64,000 bases of DNA, from the NCBI GenBank assembly GCA_020073485.1, contig JAIQFB010000008.1, positions 62,001-126,000 of the forward strand. The letters are read 5' to 3'. A program made the position numbers and the translations under genes. The notes beneath the pieces are model-generated. The model was not told where the DNA came from, ran no database searches, and worked only from the letters and a program-made list of their open reading frames with translations. Origin of the DNA: Terriglobia bacterium. GTDB taxonomy: Bacteria; Acidobacteriota; Terriglobia; Acidiferrales; UBA7541. Shown piece after piece: positions 33,823-44,534 of the stretch; the stretch's first letter is position 1; every line of letters begins with the position of its first letter.

Positions 33823-34542
33823 CTAAGACCCTTGCACCAGCCGCTCCAACCCCGACTGGCTCTTGATGGTGACGCTCGACCCTTTAATCTGCAAGAGATT
33901 CTTTTTCTTGAAGTCCGCGAAGACCCGGGTGACGGTTTCCCGCGACGCGCCGATCATCTGCGCGATCTCCTCGTGCGTGAGAGTCAGCTTGAATTTCACC
34001 GATCCGTTTTCCGACTTGTGGTTAGCGCCCCAATCCAGAATAAACCGCGCCAGCTTCTCGCCGGCGGAATGCGAGAGCCCTATGGTGCGCATTTCGGCAA
34101 ACGCTGACTGGTAGGTCTCGCTCAACTCCTGGGCCACGCGCACCGCCGCTTCGCCATGGTCGCGCAGGAAATTGAGAAAATCCGTGCGGCTGATGAAATT
34201 GGCCTGCGTGGGCTCGATCACGTCCGCAGTCACTTCGTAAGCTCTGCCGGAAATCGTGGCGGGCAGGCCCAGCAGATCTCCCGGTTCGGAAATGCGCAGG
34301 ATCAGGGTCTTGCCGTCGGAGGCGGACGTCGACAGCTTCACGTGCCCGGAACAAAGAATGAACACCCCGCGAGCGGGTTGCCCTTCAACAAACAGCGTGG
34401 CGCCTTTCGGGTAGGTAGCCGATCCGGTAATTTCGGTTAGCCGTTGCAGAGCGGCGGGGGCAAGGTTGCAGAACAGCCTGTCTTCCTTGTGAGGGCAGGT
34501 GGCGCAGTTTTCAATGATTTGCAGTCCGTAGGGCGAGCGCAT
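33823..34542 (-). CDS. Crp/Fnr-family transcription regulator with N-terminal cysteine motif
   Basis: A 239-aa regulator. The N-terminus has C13, C16 and C25 (CATC...FC), as in Fnr-like sensors, but the fourth Fnr cysteine position is not conserved; another Cys lies in FILCSGHVKL. The cNMP-like beta-roll spans about 30-145. The HTH (LTHEEIAQMIGASRETVTRV) has SRETVxR, the CRP pattern that reads GTGA half-sites. This fits the GTGA-N6-TCAC dyads in its own upstream region and at three other promoters. ATG 34542 is preferred (MRSPYGL); GTG 34626 is possible. Confidence 0.9.
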   Translation of the reverse strand: MRSPYGLQIIENCATCPHKEDRLFCNLAPAALQRLTEITGSATYPKGATLFVEGQPARGVFILCSGHVKLSTSASDGKTLILRISEPGDLLGLPATISGRAYEVTADVIEPTQANFISRTDFLNFLRDHGEAAVRVAQELSETYQSAFAEMRTIGLSHSAGEKLARFILDWGANHKSENGSVKFKLTLTHEEIAQMIGASRETVTRVFADFKKKNLLQIKGSSVTIKSQSGLERLVQGS

Positions 34543-34675
34543 GACTTTACCTACGCCCAGTATACGCCCTCGGCCACGGCTTACAAAGTGAAACCGCCCC
34601 ATTGAAGGTGTGTCGGTAGTACCCACGCGGCCATCCCTCTTGTATACAATTACCTTAAGCCTTCACCTGCGCACC

Positions 34676-34739
34676 GTGATCTAAATCACACGTAATCGTG
34701 ACCTGGGTCACGGAATTGCCGGCCCCCCTGCCCGATACT
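34676..34739 (+). promoter_or_regulatory. Tandem Crp/Fnr-type dyads in a divergent promoter region
   Basis: GTGA-TCTAAA-TCAC at 34676-34689 and GTGA-CCTGGG-TCAC at 34698-34711, centres 22 bp apart (two helical turns, same face). GATACT at 34734-34739 sits 32 bp from the second centre, giving a class II promoter for the gene at 34763 with a start near 34746. The first site can also serve the regulator gene on the other strand (autoregulation). This is the clearest regulatory site in the window. Confidence 0.7.
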
Positions 34740-34762: not shown

Positions 34763-35176
34763 ATGCCTCAGGATGACCGGGACGTCTTAGAGGTCTTGAA
34801 ATCAGAATTGAATTTTGTACAGAAGGGCGGATATGGCCGCTCTCCACGCGATCCTTTCAGGGCGCAGTTGATCTTCGAAGATTCGCTCACCTGCATGAAT
34901 TACGATACGCAGGATCACCCGAGTCCCTGCTCCGAATGCCTGCTCATGCAATTTGTGCCGCCCGATAAACAGAAAGAAAAAGTACCTTGCCGGCATATTG
35001 CTCTGACTACTGACGGCCAGACGGTTTTCGACCTGTACCAAGGCGGTGCAACGCAGCCGGAACTGGAAGAGGCGCTGTCCGGCTGGCTGACTCGAACGAT
35101 TGCGCAAATCGAGCCACTGGCGCCGATTAGTCAGGAAGTCTTTCCAAGTGCTACGACGGAAGGACTTTCCGCGTAG
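34763..35176 (+). CDS. Conserved-looking Cys-rich protein of unknown function, likely Crp/Fnr target
   Basis: A 137-aa soluble protein. Cysteines C44, C56, C59 and C76 with H78 (TCMNYD, CSEC, CRH) suggest a bound metal or Fe-S cluster. The C-terminus is acidic and helical. I do not recognise a family. It is directly under a class II dyad promoter divergent from the regulator, so it is probably its main target. GGAGG lies six bases before the ATG; a GTG at 34760 is also in frame. Confidence 0.75.
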   Translation: MPQDDRDVLEVLKSELNFVQKGGYGRSPRDPFRAQLIFEDSLTCMNYDTQDHPSPCSECLLMQFVPPDKQKEKVPCRHIALTTDGQTVFDLYQGGATQPELEEALSGWLTRTIAQIEPLAPISQEVFPSATTEGLSA

Positions 35177-35823: not shown

Positions 35824-38544
35824 TTAAAGAGTGAGCACGGCGTGGATGGAACTGAGATCCGCGTCCTTCACGATCTCGAATCCGTATCGCACGGCGAGCG
35901 CGCGCATGCCCATATTTTCGAGCAGGATGATCGCGTGAATGCGCGCCAGTTTTTCATCGCGAGCCACTTGAATCAAACGGCCCAGCAGTTCGGATCCTAG
36001 ACCGCAGTGTTGATAGCGGTCCGCGACCAGAACCGCGACTTCCCCTTCCCTGCTCCCAGGCATACGCGTGAGGCGCCCCACGGCCGTGATTTCGTGTTCG
36101 CCGCCGGATGGATTTTCCCAGTCCGCCACCAGCGCCATTTCCCGGTCGTAGTCGATGAAACACTGGCCCATCAGGCGCTCGTGAGCAACCCGGGAACTCA
36201 GCTTGGTCACGTGAAAAAAACGCAGGTACACGCTGCGGTCGGACAAGGTTTCATGGAACCTGGCCATGGCCGGCTCGTCCTCCGAGCGTATCGGCCGCAG
36301 CGTCACCTGCATGCCGTTTCTGGCGGTCCATGGCGAAACATAGCGCAGCGGGTACGGCCGGATCGCCGGGCGCGGCAGTGATTCCTCGGCGGTGTGCGGG
36401 TCCTGCAGCAGGATTCGTGCGTCCAGCGCCATCACGCGCTCGGGCGAGGCCAGCAGCGGGTTGATGTCCATTTCCTTGATCCACGGCTGCTCGATCACCA
36501 GCCTGCTGAAATCCACCAGGGCATTTTCCAGCGCCGTCATGTTCACGGCCAGCCGCCCGCGCACTCCTCCGAGCGCGCGATAGATATGCGTTTGTTCCAT
36601 CAAGCGCGTGGCCAGCGTGGAATTCAGCGGCGGCAGCCCCAGCGCGCGATCGCGATAAACCTCGACTAATTCCCCACCCGAGCCGAATAGAATTACCGGC
36701 CCGAATTGCGGGTCCACGCTGCTGCCCAGAATGAGTTCATATCCGCCGCCCTTAACCATCGGCTGCACGGTGACGCCCTGAAAGTGTTCCGGTCCGGCTT
36801 TTTCCCGGACACCGGATTCGATTTCGCGATAGCCCTGGATCACCGCTTCCCTGCTTGCCAGATTCAGCTTTACACCGCCCACGTCGGATTTGTGCGTGAT
36901 CGTTTCCGAATTGAGTTTCAGCACGACGGGAAAGCCGATGGCCTGGGCAAAATCCGCGGCCTCGGATTCGTTTTTCGCGACCCGCGTTTCCACGACCGGA
37001 ATTCCGTACAGAGCGAGCACGCGCTTGGACTCCGCTTCGGTGAGAATCGTGCGTCCGGCCGCACGAATTTTTTCCAGGAACGCTTTTGCCAGTGACTGCG
37101 TTTCGCGGGAAGAATCCAGATTCCCGAAGCTCACCGGAGTTTCATACAGGCCGCGCAGGTTGTAGGTGTAGCTCCACATGTAGGTGAATGCGCGCGCCGC
37201 CGTGTCCGGATAGGAAAACGTGGGAATGCCCGCGGCATTTAATGTTGCGATGCCCTTGGCCACTACCTCACCGCCCATCCAGCTAGCCAGCACTGGCTTG
37301 CCGTGAATCTTGGCGTGAGCGGTCAAACGCTGCGCCACCTGGTCCGGGTCGGTCATCGCCTGCGGCGCCAGTATGGCCAGCAAACCGTCGCTGTTCGGGT
37401 CCTTGGCCGCAATTTCGAGCGCCTTGGAATAGCGCTCCGGATCGGCGTCGCCCAGAATGTCGATGGGGTTTCCGCGGCTCCAATGAGCGGGGAGAAGTTG
37501 ATGGAGCGATTCCATCGAGGCGTCCGTGAGCGAGGTCAGTTCTCCGCGTGTTTCCAGCAGCGCGTCGGTCGCCAGGACGCCGGGCCCGCCCGCATTCGTT
37601 AGGATCGTCAATCTCGGGCCGCGCGGCCGCGGCTGTTTGCCCAGCACCTCGGCCATGTAAAACAGGTCGGAGATGCTCGATACGCGCAGCACGCCGCAGC
37701 GGCGCATGGCCGCGTCGAATACTTCATCGCTTCCGGTCAACGCTCCGGTGTGCGAGCTGGCCGCCTTGGATGCCGCCGCCGTGCGCCCGGCCTTGATTAC
37801 GATGATCGGTTTGCGCAGCGCGACCTCTCGCGCTGCGGAAAGAAAGGATCGCGCGTCGCCCACCGATTCCATGTACAGCAGGATGCTTTCGGTCGCGGGG
37901 TCTGCTCCGAAATAATCGATTAAGTCGCCCCAGCCAACGTCGAGCATCGAGCCTGTCGATACGATCGCGCTGAAGCCGACCTGCTCCTGAAAACTCCAGT
38001 CCAGGATGGCCGTGAGCAGCGCGCCGCTCTGGCTGAGAAACGCGACCTTGCCGGGGCGCGCCATTTCCCGGGCAAATGTGGCGTTGAGCCCCGTATGAGG
38101 AATCATGACCCCCAGGCAATTGGGGCCAATCACGCGCATGTCGCTCTTGCGCAGAAGATCCTGAATCTCGCGCTCGAGGGCCGCGCCTTCCGCCCCGCTT
38201 TCCTTGAACCCCGCCGAAATCACCACCGCCGCGCGCACTCCCGCGTCCATGCACTCGGCGATGACGCCCGGCACGGTCCTGGCCGGAGTCACGATGACGG
38301 CAAGATCGATCTTTTCTGGAACATCCGCAATCTTCGGGTAGGCGCGAAGACCGAGAATTTCAGAGTGTCTGGGGTTTACGGCGTACACTTTGCCGCGAAA
38401 CGTTTCCGCACGCAACTTCTCCAGTACAGCGCGGCCAACGGTTCCCTCGCGATCCGTTGCGCCAATGACGGCGACCGCACCCGGCGAAAACATGCTGTCC
38501 AGCGAGGATCGCCGTTCGCCTGGAGTTTCTCCCGCTGCGCTCAT
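35824..38544 (-). CDS. ADP-forming acyl-CoA synthetase fused to a GNAT acetyltransferase
   Basis: A 906-aa protein. Order: CoA-binding Rossmann domain ([21 protein letters not shown], residues 20-40), ligase domain with phospho-His segment [12 protein letters not shown]-grasp domain (about 490-710: [22 protein letters not shown] split here as [11 protein letters not shown], then [10 protein letters not shown]), and C-terminal GNAT domain (about 745-906). It makes acyl-CoA or ATP reversibly; the GNAT part suggests Pat-like lysine acetylation. It lies 89 bp after the P-type ATPase on the same strand, probably in the USP operon. Confidence 0.92.
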
Positions 38545-38633: not shown

Positions 38634-40589
38634 TCAGAAATCCGTCATGTCCTTGAAAGGCAGGGACACGCGAACCGCGTTCAACACCACGGCCAAATCG
38701 ATGATTTCCTGGGCAATGGCGCCCTCGATCGGCTGGAGATACCCGAACGCGGCTGCGATCATCCCCAGAACGCTCAACCCCATCCCTCCCAATGCGCTCA
38801 GCAGGGCAATCGAGCGCATGCGGCGTCCGATATGAAGCAACTCGTCCACCTTATCGAGCGAGGCGTCCAGAATCACCGCGTCGGCGGCCTCCCCCGTAAT
38901 ATCGCTGCTTATGCCGAACGCGACGCCCACGGTCGCGGCCTGCATGGCCGGAGCGTCGTTGATGCCGTCGCCGACAAACAGCGTTTTCGCGGTTCGCGTC
39001 TCTTCCCGGACGATGGCCACTTTTTCTTCCGGGCTCTTGGCGGAATGGATTTCCGTGATGCCCAAAAGGTCCGCGAGATACCGGACTTCCGAGTCGCGGT
39101 CGCCGGAAACCAGCAGGACGCGGCTGACGCGGTGGCGCGGCCCCAGGTGGTCCACAAAGCTACGCCCTCCCACTCGCGGAACATCGTGAAAACGCAGCGT
39201 GGCCGCGTACCGGCCGTCCATAAAAACGATGCACTCCAGCCCGGCTACGATCTCCGGCAGCGGCACTGCGGGATCCAGAATTTTCTTACGCCCCGTGATC
39301 CATACTTCCCGCGCTCCGATCGTTCCCCGCAATCCTTCTCCCTGCCGCTCGGAAACTTCCGAAGCGGCGCCGAGTTCCAGTTTTGCTTGCGAGGCGGCCG
39401 CGAGAATCGCGCGGGCCAGCGGATGCTTGGAATACAACTCCACGCTCGCGGCCATGCGCAGGACTTCGTTTTCGGAAAATCCGGGCGCGCACAGAATTTG
39501 CGTCAGCTCCGGGCGCCCATAAGTCAGCGTGCCGGTCTTGTCGAAGATCAGCGTGGTGCAATTTCCGATCTGTTCCAGCACAGCCTGGTTCTTGATGATG
39601 ATGCTGCGCCGCGCGGAGAGCGAAATGGCGCCGATGATCGCCACGGGAATGGCCAGCAAAAGGGGACAAGGCGTGGCAATTACCAGGACCGCCAGGAACC
39701 GGTTGGACTGCCCGCTGGCGATCCACGCGACAACCGCAAGCGTGACAGCCACGGGCGTATACCACGCGCCAAGCATGTCTCCCAGCCTGCGCAGACGCGG
39801 CCGGCGCTGCTGCGTTTCTTCCATGACGCGAATGATCTTGGCGTACCGGGAATCGATGGGAAGCCTGGTGGCGCGAACGATAAGCGCACTTTCCCCATTG
39901 ATGGCTCCGGAAATCACTTCGGCTCCGGCGGCTTTCGATGTTTCAAAAGGTTCGCCGGTCAGGTAAGCCTCATTCATTTTTCCTTGGCCTTCCTCGACGA
40001 TCCCGTCCACCGGGCAAATTTCATGCGGAAACACGACGAGCAAGTCTCCGACAGCGATTTGTCCGACGTCGATATCGGTGATTTCCGTTCCCACCTTGCG
40101 GTGCGCCGTCCGGGGCATCCGCTTAGCCAAGGCTTCCAGCACGGAGGAAGCGCGCCGCGTCGCAAATTCCTCCAGCGCCGTGCCTCCGGAGAGCATGAGA
40201 ACCACAATCGCGCCGACCAGGTATTCCCCCATCACGGCGGACGCGACAATGGAAATGCCAGCCAGCAAATCAGAACCAAATTCGCGAGCCAGGCTTTTCC
40301 GAATCAAGGTAAGAACCAGAGGGAACCCGCCGAGCAACAGGACTACAAAAAGAGGAGCGTTTTGCTGAAATTTGGGTGCGTGGAAAATAAATCGCAGAAC
40401 AAAATACGCAGCGATGCCGAGCAGGGCGACACCGGCGATGACCTGATCGCTCTGGAAATGGCCATCCGCCGACCGGAAAATGGAAACCCGGGGCTTCGCG
40501 CGAGGATCGCTTTTCGCTTCCTGACTATTGCGCGCAACCCCGGGTTCTTCTACCGCGTTTGGCTCAGTGGCCACATCCGCCTCGGCCAT
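38634..40589 (-). CDS. P1B-type heavy-metal-translocating ATPase with TPCP motif
   Basis: A 651-aa membrane pump. The phosphorylation motif DKTGTLTYG is near residue 349; TGEPFETSKAAG and GDGINDAPAMQAA are intact. The transmembrane metal motif is ATPCPLLLA near 303, TPC instead of CPC. TPC-type pumps are less well known and have been linked to nickel or iron. No N-terminal metal-binding domain; the N-terminus is Ala/Glu-rich. It starts 3 bp after the USP gene. With nickel hydrogenases nearby, nickel or iron handling is a fair guess only. Confidence 0.88.
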   Translation of the reverse strand: MAEADVATEPNAVEEPGVARNSQEAKSDPRAKPRVSIFRSADGHFQSDQVIAGVALLGIAAYFVLRFIFHAPKFQQNAPLFVVLLLGGFPLVLTLIRKSLAREFGSDLLAGISIVASAVMGEYLVGAIVVLMLSGGTALEEFATRRASSVLEALAKRMPRTAHRKVGTEITDIDVGQIAVGDLLVVFPHEICPVDGIVEEGQGKMNEAYLTGEPFETSKAAGAEVISGAINGESALIVRATRLPIDSRYAKIIRVMEETQQRRPRLRRLGDMLGAWYTPVAVTLAVVAWIASGQSNRFLAVLVIATPCPLLLAIPVAIIGAISLSARRSIIIKNQAVLEQIGNCTTLIFDKTGTLTYGRPELTQILCAPGFSENEVLRMAASVELYSKHPLARAILAAASQAKLELGAASEVSERQGEGLRGTIGAREVWITGRKKILDPAVPLPEIVAGLECIVFMDGRYAATLRFHDVPRVGGRSFVDHLGPRHRVSRVLLVSGDRDSEVRYLADLLGITEIHSAKSPEEKVAIVREETRTAKTLFVGDGINDAPAMQAATVGVAFGISSDITGEAADAVILDASLDKVDELLHIGRRMRSIALLSALGGMGLSVLGMIAAAFGYLQPIEGAIAQEIIDLAVVLNAVRVSLPFKDMTDF

Positions 40590-40592
40590 GCC

Positions 40593-41486
40593 TTAGCCGC
40601 GGACCGTGAGGACCGGGCAACGGGCCTGAGTGACTACTTTGTGCGCGATCGATTGCAGCAAATGCGTCGCCGCGCCAATTCCTCCTTCGGCTCCACGAAC
40701 GCCGAGGACGATCAGGTCGGCGCCCAGCGCATTGGCGACTTCCATGATCTTCTCCGCTTCGTGGCCGTGCTCCACCTTGCAATTCGGTTCGCACCAGGGC
40801 TCGGCTTCCGCCGGCACCAGCTTGCGCAGCTGCCGCATGATCGATTCGGCGTATTGCTCGGCATGCACCAGTTCTCCGACTTTCGCCGGGCCGACGATGT
40901 GAAGCAGCGTCAAGCGCGCTTGATGCTCCTGCGCCAGGGACACGGCAAAGGGCAATGCGGCGAGCGACTCGGGTGAAAAATCGGTCGCGAAGAGAATTTC
41001 CTTCATTTCCAGGCGCCGCTCGGTGTCCTTGGAGGCATGCGGCCCCACGGTAAGAACGGGGACTGTAGACTTGCGGAAAATTTCCTCGGCCACCGACCCG
41101 AGCAGGACCCGCGTAACCCCGGTGCGCCCGTGCGTGCCGATGACGATGAGGTCGGCCTTATGCTCGGTGGCGACTTCATTGAGCATCGGCCAAACCTCGC
41201 CTTCACCCACGGAAACTTCGTGCGGAACTCCGGTCAGCATCTGGTGCAACTGTTGCGCTTCGATCTTGGCTTGTTCCTCGGCAGCCTGCATGACTTGCGG
41301 CATGGCCTCGGGGCCGACCACGGGATACGTCGCCGGGAAACGGACGTGCAGTGCATGCACGGTCCCGCCGTATCGCTGCGCCAACCCAATCGCATAAGGC
41401 AAAGCCGCTTCCGCGGCTGGTGAGAAGTCCGTCGCGAACAGAATATTCTTAAGAGCAATTCTGGTCTTTGTCGCTGTGGCGTTCAT
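40593..41486 (-). CDS. Universal stress protein with two UspA domains
   Basis: A 297-aa tandem UspA protein. Each half begins as LKNILFATDFSPAAEAALPY / MKEILFATDFSPESLAALPF and ends with the ATP-binding pattern (IGTHGRTGVTRVLLGSVAE; LGVRGAEGGIGAATHLL). The first half keeps G-2x-G-9x-G; the second is altered. Such proteins are often induced in hypoxia or starvation. First gene of the set with the ATPase and acyl-CoA synthetase, with a GTGA-N6-TCAC dyad upstream. Confidence 0.93.
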   Translation of the reverse strand: MNATATKTRIALKNILFATDFSPAAEAALPYAIGLAQRYGGTVHALHVRFPATYPVVGPEAMPQVMQAAEEQAKIEAQQLHQMLTGVPHEVSVGEGEVWPMLNEVATEHKADLIVIGTHGRTGVTRVLLGSVAEEIFRKSTVPVLTVGPHASKDTERRLEMKEILFATDFSPESLAALPFAVSLAQEHQARLTLLHIVGPAKVGELVHAEQYAESIMRQLRKLVPAEAEPWCEPNCKVEHGHEAEKIMEVANALGADLIVLGVRGAEGGIGAATHLLQSIAHKVVTQARCPVLTVRG

Positions 41487-41505
41487 AACTCACCTCCCCT
41501 ACGCC

Positions 41506-41551
41506 TTTATAGTTACGCCGAAGCATTCCGCATGGATGTGACATCCATCAC
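41506..41551 (-). promoter_or_regulatory. Crp/Fnr-type dyad upstream of the universal stress protein
   Basis: GTGA-CATCCA-TCAC at 41538-41551. On the minus strand TAACTA and TATAAA lie 32 and 36 bp from the dyad centre, so the site would sit near -41 to -45. The USP start is at 41486, with a GGGGAGGTGAG ribosome-binding region just upstream. Confidence 0.55.
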
Positions 41552-41578
41552 AGTGCTGAGTGACTTCAGGCACTTCAT

Positions 41579-42544
41579 TTGCCAGGGCCTCTTGAGAGAC
41601 TACAGCCGCGGGCTCCAAGCAGAGCCCGCGCCCGTACTTCCATGAAATGGTTGGGCGCGATGTCAAAGAGAAAGCATATGCCAAATCTCGATGAACGCGG
41701 GGGGGTGGCCGTCGGAGGCGCCCCCTCGTGGTGCCAGGAACCGCAGCGTTGTGATGCGTCCCCCGCGAAATTGAAGGAGTGCGGGAAATGCCGGAACATT
41801 CCGCATCTGCCGGCGGCGGAATCGAATTTCGTCGAAGGTTCGCGCTCTGTCTGGGTGTATTACCCGCAGGGAATTCTCCGCCGCCCGGTGTCCGAAGGGG
41901 ATCTGCCTGCAACTCGCCCCGCGCAACCCCGTTCTTTCCTGCCACACGAATGCCGGGGAGCAAAGTCGGCGCCCGAGGTCTTGGAAACCGCTCCGTATCC
42001 CGGCCACTCGCTGTTCCAGGACTCGTTTTTGTTCTGCAAGTTCAAGAAAGTCGGCGACGCACCCGGCTTGGAAGAAGTTTATGTGGAGACCGTCGTGGAC
42101 GGGTGTACCGGCCTTGCCTTTGCAAAAGTTTATTCCGCGGAAAGCGGCGTGAACGCGACCGACATTTTCGAGACTCGCGTCGTGCCGTTTTTCGCCCGCC
42201 ATGGCGTTCCCATCGAGCAAGTCATAACCACCGGCGCCGATGAGTATTGCGGCACACCGCTGCTTCACCCCTTTGAAACCTATCTGGCAGCGTCAAACAT
42301 TCGCCACACGCAGACCGAGCGCTCCGGGAAATTGCACTCCCCGCTGTGCATGCAATTCTTCGGCATCCTGCAGCACGAGTTTCTGGCCCCGGCGCTGCGC
42401 GGCAGATTTCAGCATACGGTCGAATCTCTCCAGCAGGAATTGGACCATTTTCTGGATGCCTATAATCACGCCCGGCCGAGCCTGGCGCCCGGCATGCAAG
42501 GCCGCCCCCCTCTGCGCGCGTTCCTCGATACGGCACGAGCCTGA
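41579..42544 (+). CDS. Degenerate IS481-like DDE transposase with intact reading frame
   Basis: Residues from about 145 match IS481-type integrase cores: EEVYVETVVDGCTGLAFAKV, VVPFFARHGVPIEQV, EYCG, HARPSLAPGMQGRPPLRAFL. The catalytic signature is lost: the DRG before EYCG is TGA (residues read TTGADEYCG), and the usual NGxxERFH is replaced by SGKLHSPLCMQFF. The N-terminal 140 residues do not look like the usual HTH. The frame is uninterrupted, and no terminal inverted repeats are seen. Start may be ATG 41579 or 41660. Either a decaying relic or a recruited DNA-binding protein. Confidence 0.65.
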   Translation: MPGPLERLQPRAPSRARARTSMKWLGAMSKRKHMPNLDERGGVAVGGAPSWCQEPQRCDASPAKLKECGKCRNIPHLPAAESNFVEGSRSVWVYYPQGILRRPVSEGDLPATRPAQPRSFLPHECRGAKSAPEVLETAPYPGHSLFQDSFLFCKFKKVGDAPGLEEVYVETVVDGCTGLAFAKVYSAESGVNATDIFETRVVPFFARHGVPIEQVITTGADEYCGTPLLHPFETYLAASNIRHTQTERSGKLHSPLCMQFFGILQHEFLAPALRGRFQHTVESLQQELDHFLDAYNHARPSLAPGMQGRPPLRAFLDTARA

Positions 42545-42567
42545 AGCTGCGCAACAAAGCCTATTGT

Positions 42568-42666
42568 GTCATTCCGAGGGCCGGTTCGTGGTCCGAGAAA
42601 TCTCTCCGGGTTTTAAACTCAAAAGAATGAGGGATTCCTCGGCAAGAATCGCGCCTCGAAATGACG
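42568..42666. repeat. GTCATTCCGAG-type intergenic repeat, copy 1
   Basis: Begins GTCATTCCGAG and ends CGAAATGAC, with GAGGGATTCCTCGGCAAGAA inside. The same start and end occur at 57970-58057. Together with 42545-42923 it fills a 379-bp gap before the lactate permease that holds no gene. Confidence 0.7.
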
Positions 42667-42923
42667 GCGTTTTCAGCTGTTCCGCGGTATCTCGAGCTCG
42701 TCCGCAGCGACCGACTGTTGTTTTCATTGCCAGCTGGAAAACTCCAGGTTCACGGACTGAAATCTTCTTTTGACGCCCCGGCTATTTGTGCTATTGCTTT
42801 GCCCGGATTTCCTGCGAAACTAGTGCGCTGGAAACGGATCGCGGTTATTATCACGCGCCACCATTTGTGCGCGACGCATGCAGATCTAGAAAATGAGACG
42901 GCCATTGCGAAAGGAAGCGCCCG

Positions 42924-44534
42924 ATGTTTGAGCAGGTTCTCGATCCCGCAGGACACATCTGGCTCAGCGTTTTGATCTCGCTGGTGCCGCTCATCGCCTT
43001 GCTCTTCATGCTCGCGGTCCTGCGCATGACGGCGTGGCTCGCCTCCATCATCGTGGGCGTCATCACCATTCCCATCGGAGTTTATGTGTGGCACGCGCCT
43101 CTCGCGGGCACGATCAAATCCTATTTGTACGGCGGCCTCACCGGTTTCTGGGTCATCGACTGGATCACGTTCTGGGGCCTCATTATTTTCAACACCCTGG
43201 TCATTACCGGGCATTTCGAGCGGTTTAAGACCTGGATGCTTCACCACGCCACCGGCGACATTCGCATTCAGACCATCATGCTGGCATGGGCTTTCGGTGC
43301 GCTCCTGGAGGGGCTTGTGGGGTTCGGCACCCCCTGGGCTTTTGTGGTGCCGATTTTGGTTGGGCTGGGCATCGCGGACCTGGACGCAATTCGCGTCGCC
43401 GCGCTCGCGAACAACGCTCCCGTCTCTTATGGCGCGCTGGGAGCACCCATCCTCGGGCTTGCCCTGGTGACCGGCTTGCCGCTTTTCGCGTTATCCGCTT
43501 CCATCGGAAACGTCGTCGCTATCCTCGCGCTGCTCCCTCCCTGGGTGCTGATTTATCTGGTGAGCGGATGGGACGGAATGATGGAGGCGTGGCCGCTGGC
43601 GATCGTTGGATCGCTTTCCTACATCGCCGGACAATGGCCCACGGCTCATTATCTGGGGCCCTATCTGCCGGATCTGAGCGGGGCCCTGGTTTCTTTCTGG
43701 GTCTTATTTGTTTTCGTGAAGTTTTGGAAACCAAAAACGATTCGGGGATTTGGAGGCGCGCCGCTGGCCTCGCAAGTTGCGAGTATTTCAGACTCTGCCA
43801 AAACGGGCGCGATGCGCGAAGCCCTTTTCGCATGGCTGCCGTTCATTATCCTGATCCTCGTGGTGGTCGGATGGACCAATCCTTGGTCCCCGCTTCCCTC
43901 GATCAGCCTGTTCAAGTGGATCGTGACCGCGAAGTCCTCGGTGACGCACACTGCGATCGCTTCGACATTTAATTTTGCTCCGCTCGGAGGCGGCACATCG
44001 ACGCTGGCTTCGTGGTTCGTAATTCTCGCGATCCTGCAGCCCAGCGGCAAACAAGTGAGTGAGGTTTTTTCGCGGACCTTTAAGCAAATGTGGGGCGCGC
44101 TCCTGGTCGCGTTTTTTATTTTCGCAATCGCCTACACGTTTGTTTATACGGGGATGGCCAACTCGCTGGCCTTCGGACTATCCAAGATCGGTGTATTTTT
44201 TGTGGTGCTGGCGCCCATTCTCGGATGGATCGGAGTGGCCCTCTCCGGCAGCAACACTTCGACGAACGCCATGTTCGGCCCCGTACAGGCCATGACCGGC
44301 CGCTTGTTGCATCTCCCGGTCCTGCTGCTCCCGACTCTCAACTCCGTTGGTTCGGAGGTCGGCAAACCCATCGCCCCGCAAACCGCCAGCGTCGGCGTTT
44401 CCACCAGCAAACTGGTGCGCAGCGAAGGCCAGGTCATCCGCCACAACATGGGCTGGACGCTGATCCTGCTTGGCTACCTGATCCTGATCAGCATCCTCTT
44501 CTACTTTTTCTTCCCTGGCTCGATGTCGCTCTAG
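42924..44534 (+). CDS. lctP: L-lactate permease family transporter
   Basis: A 536-aa membrane protein with about 13 helices. Family motifs: AWAFGALLEGLVGFGTPWAF, NNAPVSYGALGAPI, and SNTSTNAMFGPVQ near the end. It imports lactate or glycolate. It stands alone and ends in an inverted repeat shared with the convergent gene. Confidence 0.92.
   Translation: MFEQVLDPAGHIWLSVLISLVPLIALLFMLAVLRMTAWLASIIVGVITIPIGVYVWHAPLAGTIKSYLYGGLTGFWVIDWITFWGLIIFNTLVITGHFERFKTWMLHHATGDIRIQTIMLAWAFGALLEGLVGFGTPWAFVVPILVGLGIADLDAIRVAALANNAPVSYGALGAPILGLALVTGLPLFALSASIGNVVAILALLPPWVLIYLVSGWDGMMEAWPLAIVGSLSYIAGQWPTAHYLGPYLPDLSGALVSFWVLFVFVKFWKPKTIRGFGGAPLASQVASISDSAKTGAMREALFAWLPFIILILVVVGWTNPWSPLPSISLFKWIVTAKSSVTHTAIASTFNFAPLGGGTSTLASWFVILAILQPSGKQVSEVFSRTFKQMWGALLVAFFIFAIAYTFVYTGMANSLAFGLSKIGVFFVVLAPILGWIGVALSGSNTSTNAMFGPVQAMTGRLLHLPVLLLPTLNSVGSEVGKPIAPQTASVGVSTSKLVRSEGQVIRHNMGWTLILLGYLILISILFYFFFPGSMSL

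Follow-up and report, generated by a model that had tools for sequence, protein, structure and literature searches.

A Transposase-Derived Gene, Probably Domesticated, beside a Stress-Gene Cluster in Acidobacteria

The window analysed here, a 64,000-nucleotide stretch of DNA from a Terriglobia bacterium (contig JAIQFB010000008.1, positions 62,001 to 126,000), belongs to a genome of 5.05 Mb in 46 contigs (labelled G000) and holds what is very probably a domesticated protein-coding gene. Its orthologues form one clade in two genera and share a fixed neighbourhood; the frame is open and under purifying selection, and the protein has an integrase-core fold with a changed active site and no detectable HTH. 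Taking all of this together, we consider it likely that a host gene arose from an IS481-family transposase and that its non-catalytic core now belongs to a stress regulon. Transposase genes of bacteria are routinely dismissed as mobile or dead; in the present case selection has preserved an insertion-sequence protein next to one stress cluster in two genera. The nearest named database record is a Terriglobia MAG (JAIQFG010000056.1).

Results

The gene and its orthologues. The frame at 41579-42544 is open throughout, as the original prediction had described it. Its TTG start, however, is probably placed too far upstream: a clear third-position bias sets in only at about 41720, which makes TTG41579 doubtful and points to a true start downstream. 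The features of the gene are as follows.

41579-42544, forward strand: open reading frame with an IS481-type core, 321 amino acids if read from TTG41579
41601-41636, forward strand: leader stem-loop, TACAGCCGCGGGCTC/GAGCCCGCGCCCGTA
ATG41642, ATG41660 and ATG41678, forward strand: in-frame alternative starts, more likely to begin the coding sequence
41999-42475, forward strand: core with an RNase H-like integrase fold, residues 114-272 counted from ATG41660 (AlphaFold2 model, structure alignment)
42020-42022, forward strand: D1 site, codon GAC, Asp121 kept (LFQDSF)
42056-42073, forward strand: six-residue insertion after VG (D-A-P-G-L-E), placed by hand; the MAFFT gap falls a few residues upstream
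42230-42232, forward strand: D2 site, codon ACC, Thr191; D in IS481 relatives
42350-42352, forward strand: E site, codon ATG, Met231; E in IS481 relatives

Orthologues are present in 5 of 89 genomes of the family, namely four of the six genus members (G000, G082, G083 and G084) and G044, which belongs to another genus. At E 1e-6 six family genomes match, but the match in G035 is an IS481-type transposase fragment with a stop and was left out. A profile search of the order returned the same five orthologues (6 of 95 genomes matching), and those of the class and the phylum, each a sample of a larger group, gave matches in 15 of 399 and 11 of 396 genomes; all three counts include the known members. 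Each of the five genomes has a single match at E 1e-6 and at 1e-10, and at E 1 a second, weak one appears in G000 (E 0.009, 30% over 64 residues). The closest orthologue, that of G084, is 81% identical to the window protein in amino acids, and the three others, whose frames are open as well, are 34-41% identical. One of the three antisense frames is open in both G000 and G084, but the remaining orthologues have stops in every antisense frame, and an antisense-gene artefact was rejected.

In a tree of 19 rows, from which the partial rows L115, L118, L119 and L122 had been dropped, the five orthologues form one clade (support 99/99) with G044 outside the four genus members. All five carry the six-residue insertion near the first strand, which is found in none of the seven IS481 rows of the alignment and which in G044 resembles a repeat of the neighbouring stretch; common to all five is also a Q that replaces R after the catalytic E position. 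The gene is absent from G085, a 97% complete genome of the same genus, and is thus dispensable at least there; G086 (71% complete) has neither a permease nor an ATPase match and is uninformative. Viral contigs yielded no relative, and the 569 plasmid records that match do so at less than 60% identity, seven of the eight plasmid matches listed being annotated as IS481 transposase and one as integrase. These comparisons cover five orthologues only, from fragmented assemblies.

Searches of 41400-43000 gave no Rfam match and no sigma-70-like promoter, and RNA folding of four leader stretches gave unconvincing z-scores (-0.50 to -1.85). One compensatory change is seen in the leader stem-loop, where the pair 41611-41626, assigned by hand, is G-C in the window and A-U in G084. 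In G082 a GGGGGCG/CGCCCCC stem likewise precedes the start. A G+C-rich block inside the presumed N-terminal coding region (41696-41739) is identical in G000 and G084.

The stress cluster and its operator. The neighbouring genes and operator sites of the window are the following.

33823-34626, reverse strand: CRP/FNR-type regulator gene (cNMP_binding and HTH_Crp_2)
34676-34711: two perfect operator sites in tandem (34676-34689, 34698-34711), upstream of the regulator gene
35824-38544, reverse strand: acyl-CoA ligase gene (CoA-binding, Succ_CoA_lig, ATP-grasp_5) with a C-terminal GNAT domain
38634-40589, reverse strand: P-type (E1-E2) ATPase gene
40593-41486, reverse strand: tandem universal stress protein (USP) gene, divergent (Pfam Usp, E 2.1e-60, two stretches)
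41538-41551: GTGACATCCATCAC, a perfect CRP-type palindrome
41560-41573: GTGACTTCAGGCAC, second site of the tandem pair, with one mismatch, 22 bp from the first
42924-44534, forward strand: L-lactate permease gene, next downstream (Pfam Lactate_perm, E 1e-94)

The transposase-derived gene had been predicted to lie divergent to a USP set with a dyad in between, and both are borne out: the tandem USP gene occupies the opposite strand, and the dyad is TGTGACATCCATCACA, around the site at 41538-41551. The divergent USP gene recurs in all five orthologue genomes. The acyl-CoA ligase, ATPase and USP genes adjoin the transposase-derived gene in G000, G083, G084 and G044, and keep the same order in these genomes and in G085; the next gene downstream is the lactate permease in all four genus members, one of which (G082) is represented by a 3,775-base contig with the USP and permease genes as its only neighbours. 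Upstream of the transposase-derived gene, G044 has an OsmC gene in the same orientation, and the 34 bases between the two include AGGAGG. An Hsp20-family gene occupies the slot in G085, where the lactate permease and the USP are on separate contigs. Among 27 stretches beside an ATPase homologue from 26 family genomes (32 genomes have an ATPase match), several of them short and many from other clusters, none contains the transposase-derived gene. Divergent from the CRP-type regulator, and sharing a tandem operator with it, is a conserved small protein (34763-35176) with a C-x2-C ... CRHI pattern and no Pfam match; homologues occur in G084, G085, G044, G027, G071 and G058.

The motif GTGA-N6-TCAC occurs seven times in the window versus 0.74 expected. 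A candidate pair of operators, 22 bp apart, lies upstream of the USP gene and of the transposase-derived gene's unit in all five genomes, being perfect in G082, G083 and G044 and carrying one mismatch in G000 and G084, and a perfect pair stands upstream of the CRP-type regulator in G000, G084, G085 and G044. With at most one mismatch allowed, the tandem pattern was found 24 times in G000, 7 in G082, 20 in G083, 20 in G084, 21 in G085 and 4 in G044, while the backward-read control gave 0 in all six. Another perfect tandem operator, in G083 (L036, 5835-5870), adjoins a frame read by eye as an acyl-CoA (benzoate-type) ligase. The regulator of the window is 98% identical to its counterpart in G084, 78% to that in G085 and 65% to that in G044, and its RETVTR helix is, we assume, what would be expected for GTGA recognition. 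The tandem operator could mark a regulon that can be mapped across the family. At the orthologue loci the pair is shared with the divergent USP gene, and since G085 keeps it at the USP (one mismatch) without the transposase-derived gene, it may serve the USP alone. We nonetheless lean toward control of the transposase-derived gene by the CRP-type operator.

The divergent arrangement and the conserved palindrome would also suit a sequence-specific regulator of the divergent promoter, with the dyad as its own binding site. We consider this quite unlikely. Pfam HTH models, which are present in the IS481 relative L017, match none of the five orthologues (at E 1 for the window protein and at 0.1 for the other four). 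The palindrome belongs to the CRP type, and its tandem pairs number 4 to 24 in each of the six genomes; G085 has 21 of these pairs yet lacks the transposase-derived gene. The cluster itself encodes a CRP-type regulator.

Origin and fold of the core. An IS481-like core of about 180 residues had been proposed, and both searches recover it. The NCBIfam model transpos_IS481 (NF033577) matches residues 155-314 (E 1.9e-20) at 73.6 bits against a curated cut-off of 224, which the other orthologues also fail to reach (G044, 80.6; G084, 66.5; G082, 65.4; G083, 49.6), and BLASTP gives 35% identity over 186 residues to an IS481-type transposase of acidobacterial origin whose frame is unbroken and which retains D-D-E. 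Pfam integrase models match weakly, and identity to IS481-family transposases over the aligned protein is 31-32%. Given this homologous integrase core, the protein is a descendant of an IS481-family transposase. The AlphaFold2 model has a mean pLDDT of 56.1 and is fair in the core only, where 10-residue blocks average 60-88; residues 1-113 are below 50. Foldseek and VIA-align group the core with retroviral integrase cores and IstA, with a VIA-align Z of 15.4 to both the RAV integrase core 3o4n_B and IstA 8b4h_A, although a common integrase-core fold alone is no proof of function. Net charge of the core ranges from -3 to -8 in the five orthologues and from -5 to +2 in ten IS481 relatives, an overlap too large to claim a loss of DNA binding. 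No inverted repeats of at least 14 nt bracket the gene at the window locus, in a search that also took in three of the four other orthologue loci; shorter or degenerate ends would escape it.

Truncated transposases act as inhibitors in other IS families, and a protein that retains the core but lacks the HTH and a full catalytic set could be a dominant-negative inhibitor of related IS481 elements that protects the genome. Such a role is, however, very unlikely. Among seven genomes searched, IS481 transposases over the cut-off occur only in G084, at two places, and these are 27% and 20% identical to L017; G000, G082, G083 and G044 have the gene but no such target, though their assemblies are incomplete and distant targets are possible.

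Selection on the protein. Between G000 and G084 the frame aligns without gaps over 294 codons, with mismatches mainly at third codon positions from about 41720; in the 3' intergenic DNA, by contrast, 90-base bins have long gaps and identities down to about 45-61%. The dN/dS ratio of this pair is 0.156 (dS 0.72; 2dlnL 108.5 versus a ratio of 1), and 0.104 for codons 111-294 (2dlnL 103.5). Codons 1-40 have a dS of 0.21 and a ratio of 0.58 that is indistinguishable from 1 (2dlnL 0.8); for these codons and the block at 41696-41739, either an extra constraint on DNA or RNA or an untranslated leader may apply. The pair G082-G083 gives 0.196 with a high dS (1.65). A ratio of 0.287 for G000-G083, whose dS is borderline (1.96), is reported here but kept out of the claim of selection, and the pairs G000-G082, G000-G044 and G083-G044, with saturated dS, were not used for it. 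For the neighbours of the gene, the G000-G084 ratios are 0.060 (USP), 0.101 (ATPase) and 0.054 (lactate permease). The window protein is therefore constrained, though less than these three. The original prediction had named neutral evolution or frameshifts in close relatives as grounds for abandoning domestication. Both were looked for and neither was seen: two pairs evolve far from neutrally, the closest orthologue is gap-free, and the other three frames are open.

It is highly improbable that the gene is a recently inactivated IS481 copy whose frame is open by chance. Pfam and NCBIfam scores below cut-off, changed catalytic residues and a dN/dS above that of the three neighbouring genes are what such a copy might display. 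However, ratios of 0.10-0.20 with a value of 1 strongly rejected, 294 gap-free codons beside diverging intergenic DNA, and a neighbourhood shared by two genera all speak against it. In neutral simulations started from the G084 sequence, the fraction of frames still open was 0.12 at a distance of 0.1 and 0.0125 (25 of 2,000 runs) at 0.26, and no frame was open in 2,000 runs at the observed distance of 0.72.

The active site. The claim that the catalytic triad has been lost holds for two of the three residues: in the window protein D2 is replaced by T (TTGADEYCG versus TDNGREYCG in an IS481 relative) and E by M (SPLCMQFF versus NGFCERFH), but D1 is still Asp. Across G000, G084, G083, G082 and G044, in that order, D1 reads D, D, E, E, D; D2 reads T, T, R, R, D; and the E site reads M, M, W, E, A. 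G044 thus retains D1 and D2, and G082 retains E, but D-D-E is intact in none of the five and at least one active-site residue is changed in each. By contrast, D, D and E are present in all 15 IS481-like rows in which the three sites could be read. These rows came from the class and phylum profile searches and the IS481 transposase search; L115, L119 and L122 (incomplete) and L120, L121, L106 and L107 (no alignable frame) were left out, and the remaining profile-search matches stand outside the count, among them L026, which shows D, D, E in the alignment. We infer from the residues that catalysis has probably been lost across the five orthologues; should the E of G082 be the ancestral state, parsimony on the tree would imply three separate losses of the E site.

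In ten IS481 relatives 47 columns are nearly invariant. The 14 of these that lie in catalytic motifs are kept on average by 2.00 of the 5 orthologues and the 33 outside by 3.70 of 5. Changes are not significantly enriched in the motifs (8 of 14 motif columns versus 9 of 33 others; Fisher p 0.095). Five nearly invariant motif columns (P, G, R and T in the E motif and the T that follows D1) are kept in no orthologue. A still-active nuclease that uses other residues is scarcely credible, for although the fold is preserved and Asp stands at D1 in three of five orthologues, with D2 and E each kept in one, none has D-D-E and all five have lost those five motif columns.

Discussion

Our results suggest that a former transposase has probably been recruited for a new job. 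The gene and the divergent stress genes would be co-expressed, their promoters being controlled by a CRP/FNR-type regulator bound to the tandem GTGA-N6-TCAC pair. Less surely, its product would cut no DNA and would act through the surface of its integrase core. Integrase cores form dimers, and the protein is probably dimeric. What the core surface binds might be a stress-response protein or else nucleic acid, in the latter case irrespective of sequence. The absence of an HTH, the changed triad and the kept core together favour a non-catalytic binding role, and the location beside stress genes favours a role in the stress programme. On these features of the protein, a non-catalytic adaptor seems a likelier description than an enzyme; because the HTH is missing, classical sequence-specific DNA binding is less likely, and we regard a sequence-specific DNA binder as unlikely. 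More tentatively, and with considerable doubt, the pseudo-transposase may be a partner protein dedicated to a programme of dormancy or low-oxygen stress under CRP/FNR control, for instance an adaptor on USP or on the transcription or nucleoid machinery, by analogy with ALP1 on PRC2. Whatever its role, the gene offers, for a stress regulon of soil Acidobacteria, a candidate protein that can be tested.

A possible parallel to the cluster itself is the low-oxygen-activated (lxa) locus of Burkholderia cenocepacia, in which USPs, a heat shock protein and metabolic genes are linked to limited oxygen (PMC6127331). The likeness, USP genes together with metabolic genes, is one of gene content; the lxa locus belongs to a different phylum, and no transposase-derived gene is seen in the accessible part of that report.

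With IS481-family transposases (acidobacterial copies L017-L020; NF033577) the window protein has the integrase core and fold class in common. Unlike them, it has no HTH model, changed catalytic residues and the six-residue insertion, and its gene has one match per genome, a fixed neighbourhood and no bracketing inverted repeat that could be found. No domesticated IS481 protein of bacteria was recognised in the literature searched, a scope outside which subscription papers mostly fell. Two other bacterial cases belong to different classes: TnpA-REP is an HUH/Y1 enzyme, and TldR derives from nuclease-dead TnpB and has a TnpB/Cas12-like fold. TnpA-REP (RAYT), called the first prokaryotic domesticated transposase in the portion of PMC8266576 available, is likewise encoded by a bacterial chromosomal transposase-derived gene, but it is tied to REP palindromes, whereas the window gene has a DDE core with a changed active site. 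TldR proteins, described in the available text of PMC13418256 as RNA-guided transcription factors, resemble the window protein as transposon-derived proteins without nuclease activity that are reused in bacteria, a loss that is read here from sequence; unlike the RNA-guided TldR, the window gene has no guide RNA found at its leader (Rfam only).

Arabidopsis ALP1 is a domesticated PIF/Harbinger transposase that interacts with PRC2 (PMC4890758). The marks of domesticated transposases used here (catalytic loss, coding capacity, low copy number, and expression or host function) follow the accessible sections of that article, and the window gene displays conserved coding capacity and a low copy number. 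As in ALP1, so far as those sections describe it, the DDE motif is mutated, the gene is single copy and coding capacity is preserved; ALP1 lacks terminal repeats, and at the window gene no bracketing inverted repeat of 14 nt or more was found. ALP1, however, is eukaryotic, comes from another transposase superfamily and has a known partner, whereas the window gene is bacterial. The case would be a DDE-type addition to the examples of bacterial exaptation; its nearest described analogue in logic is ALP1.
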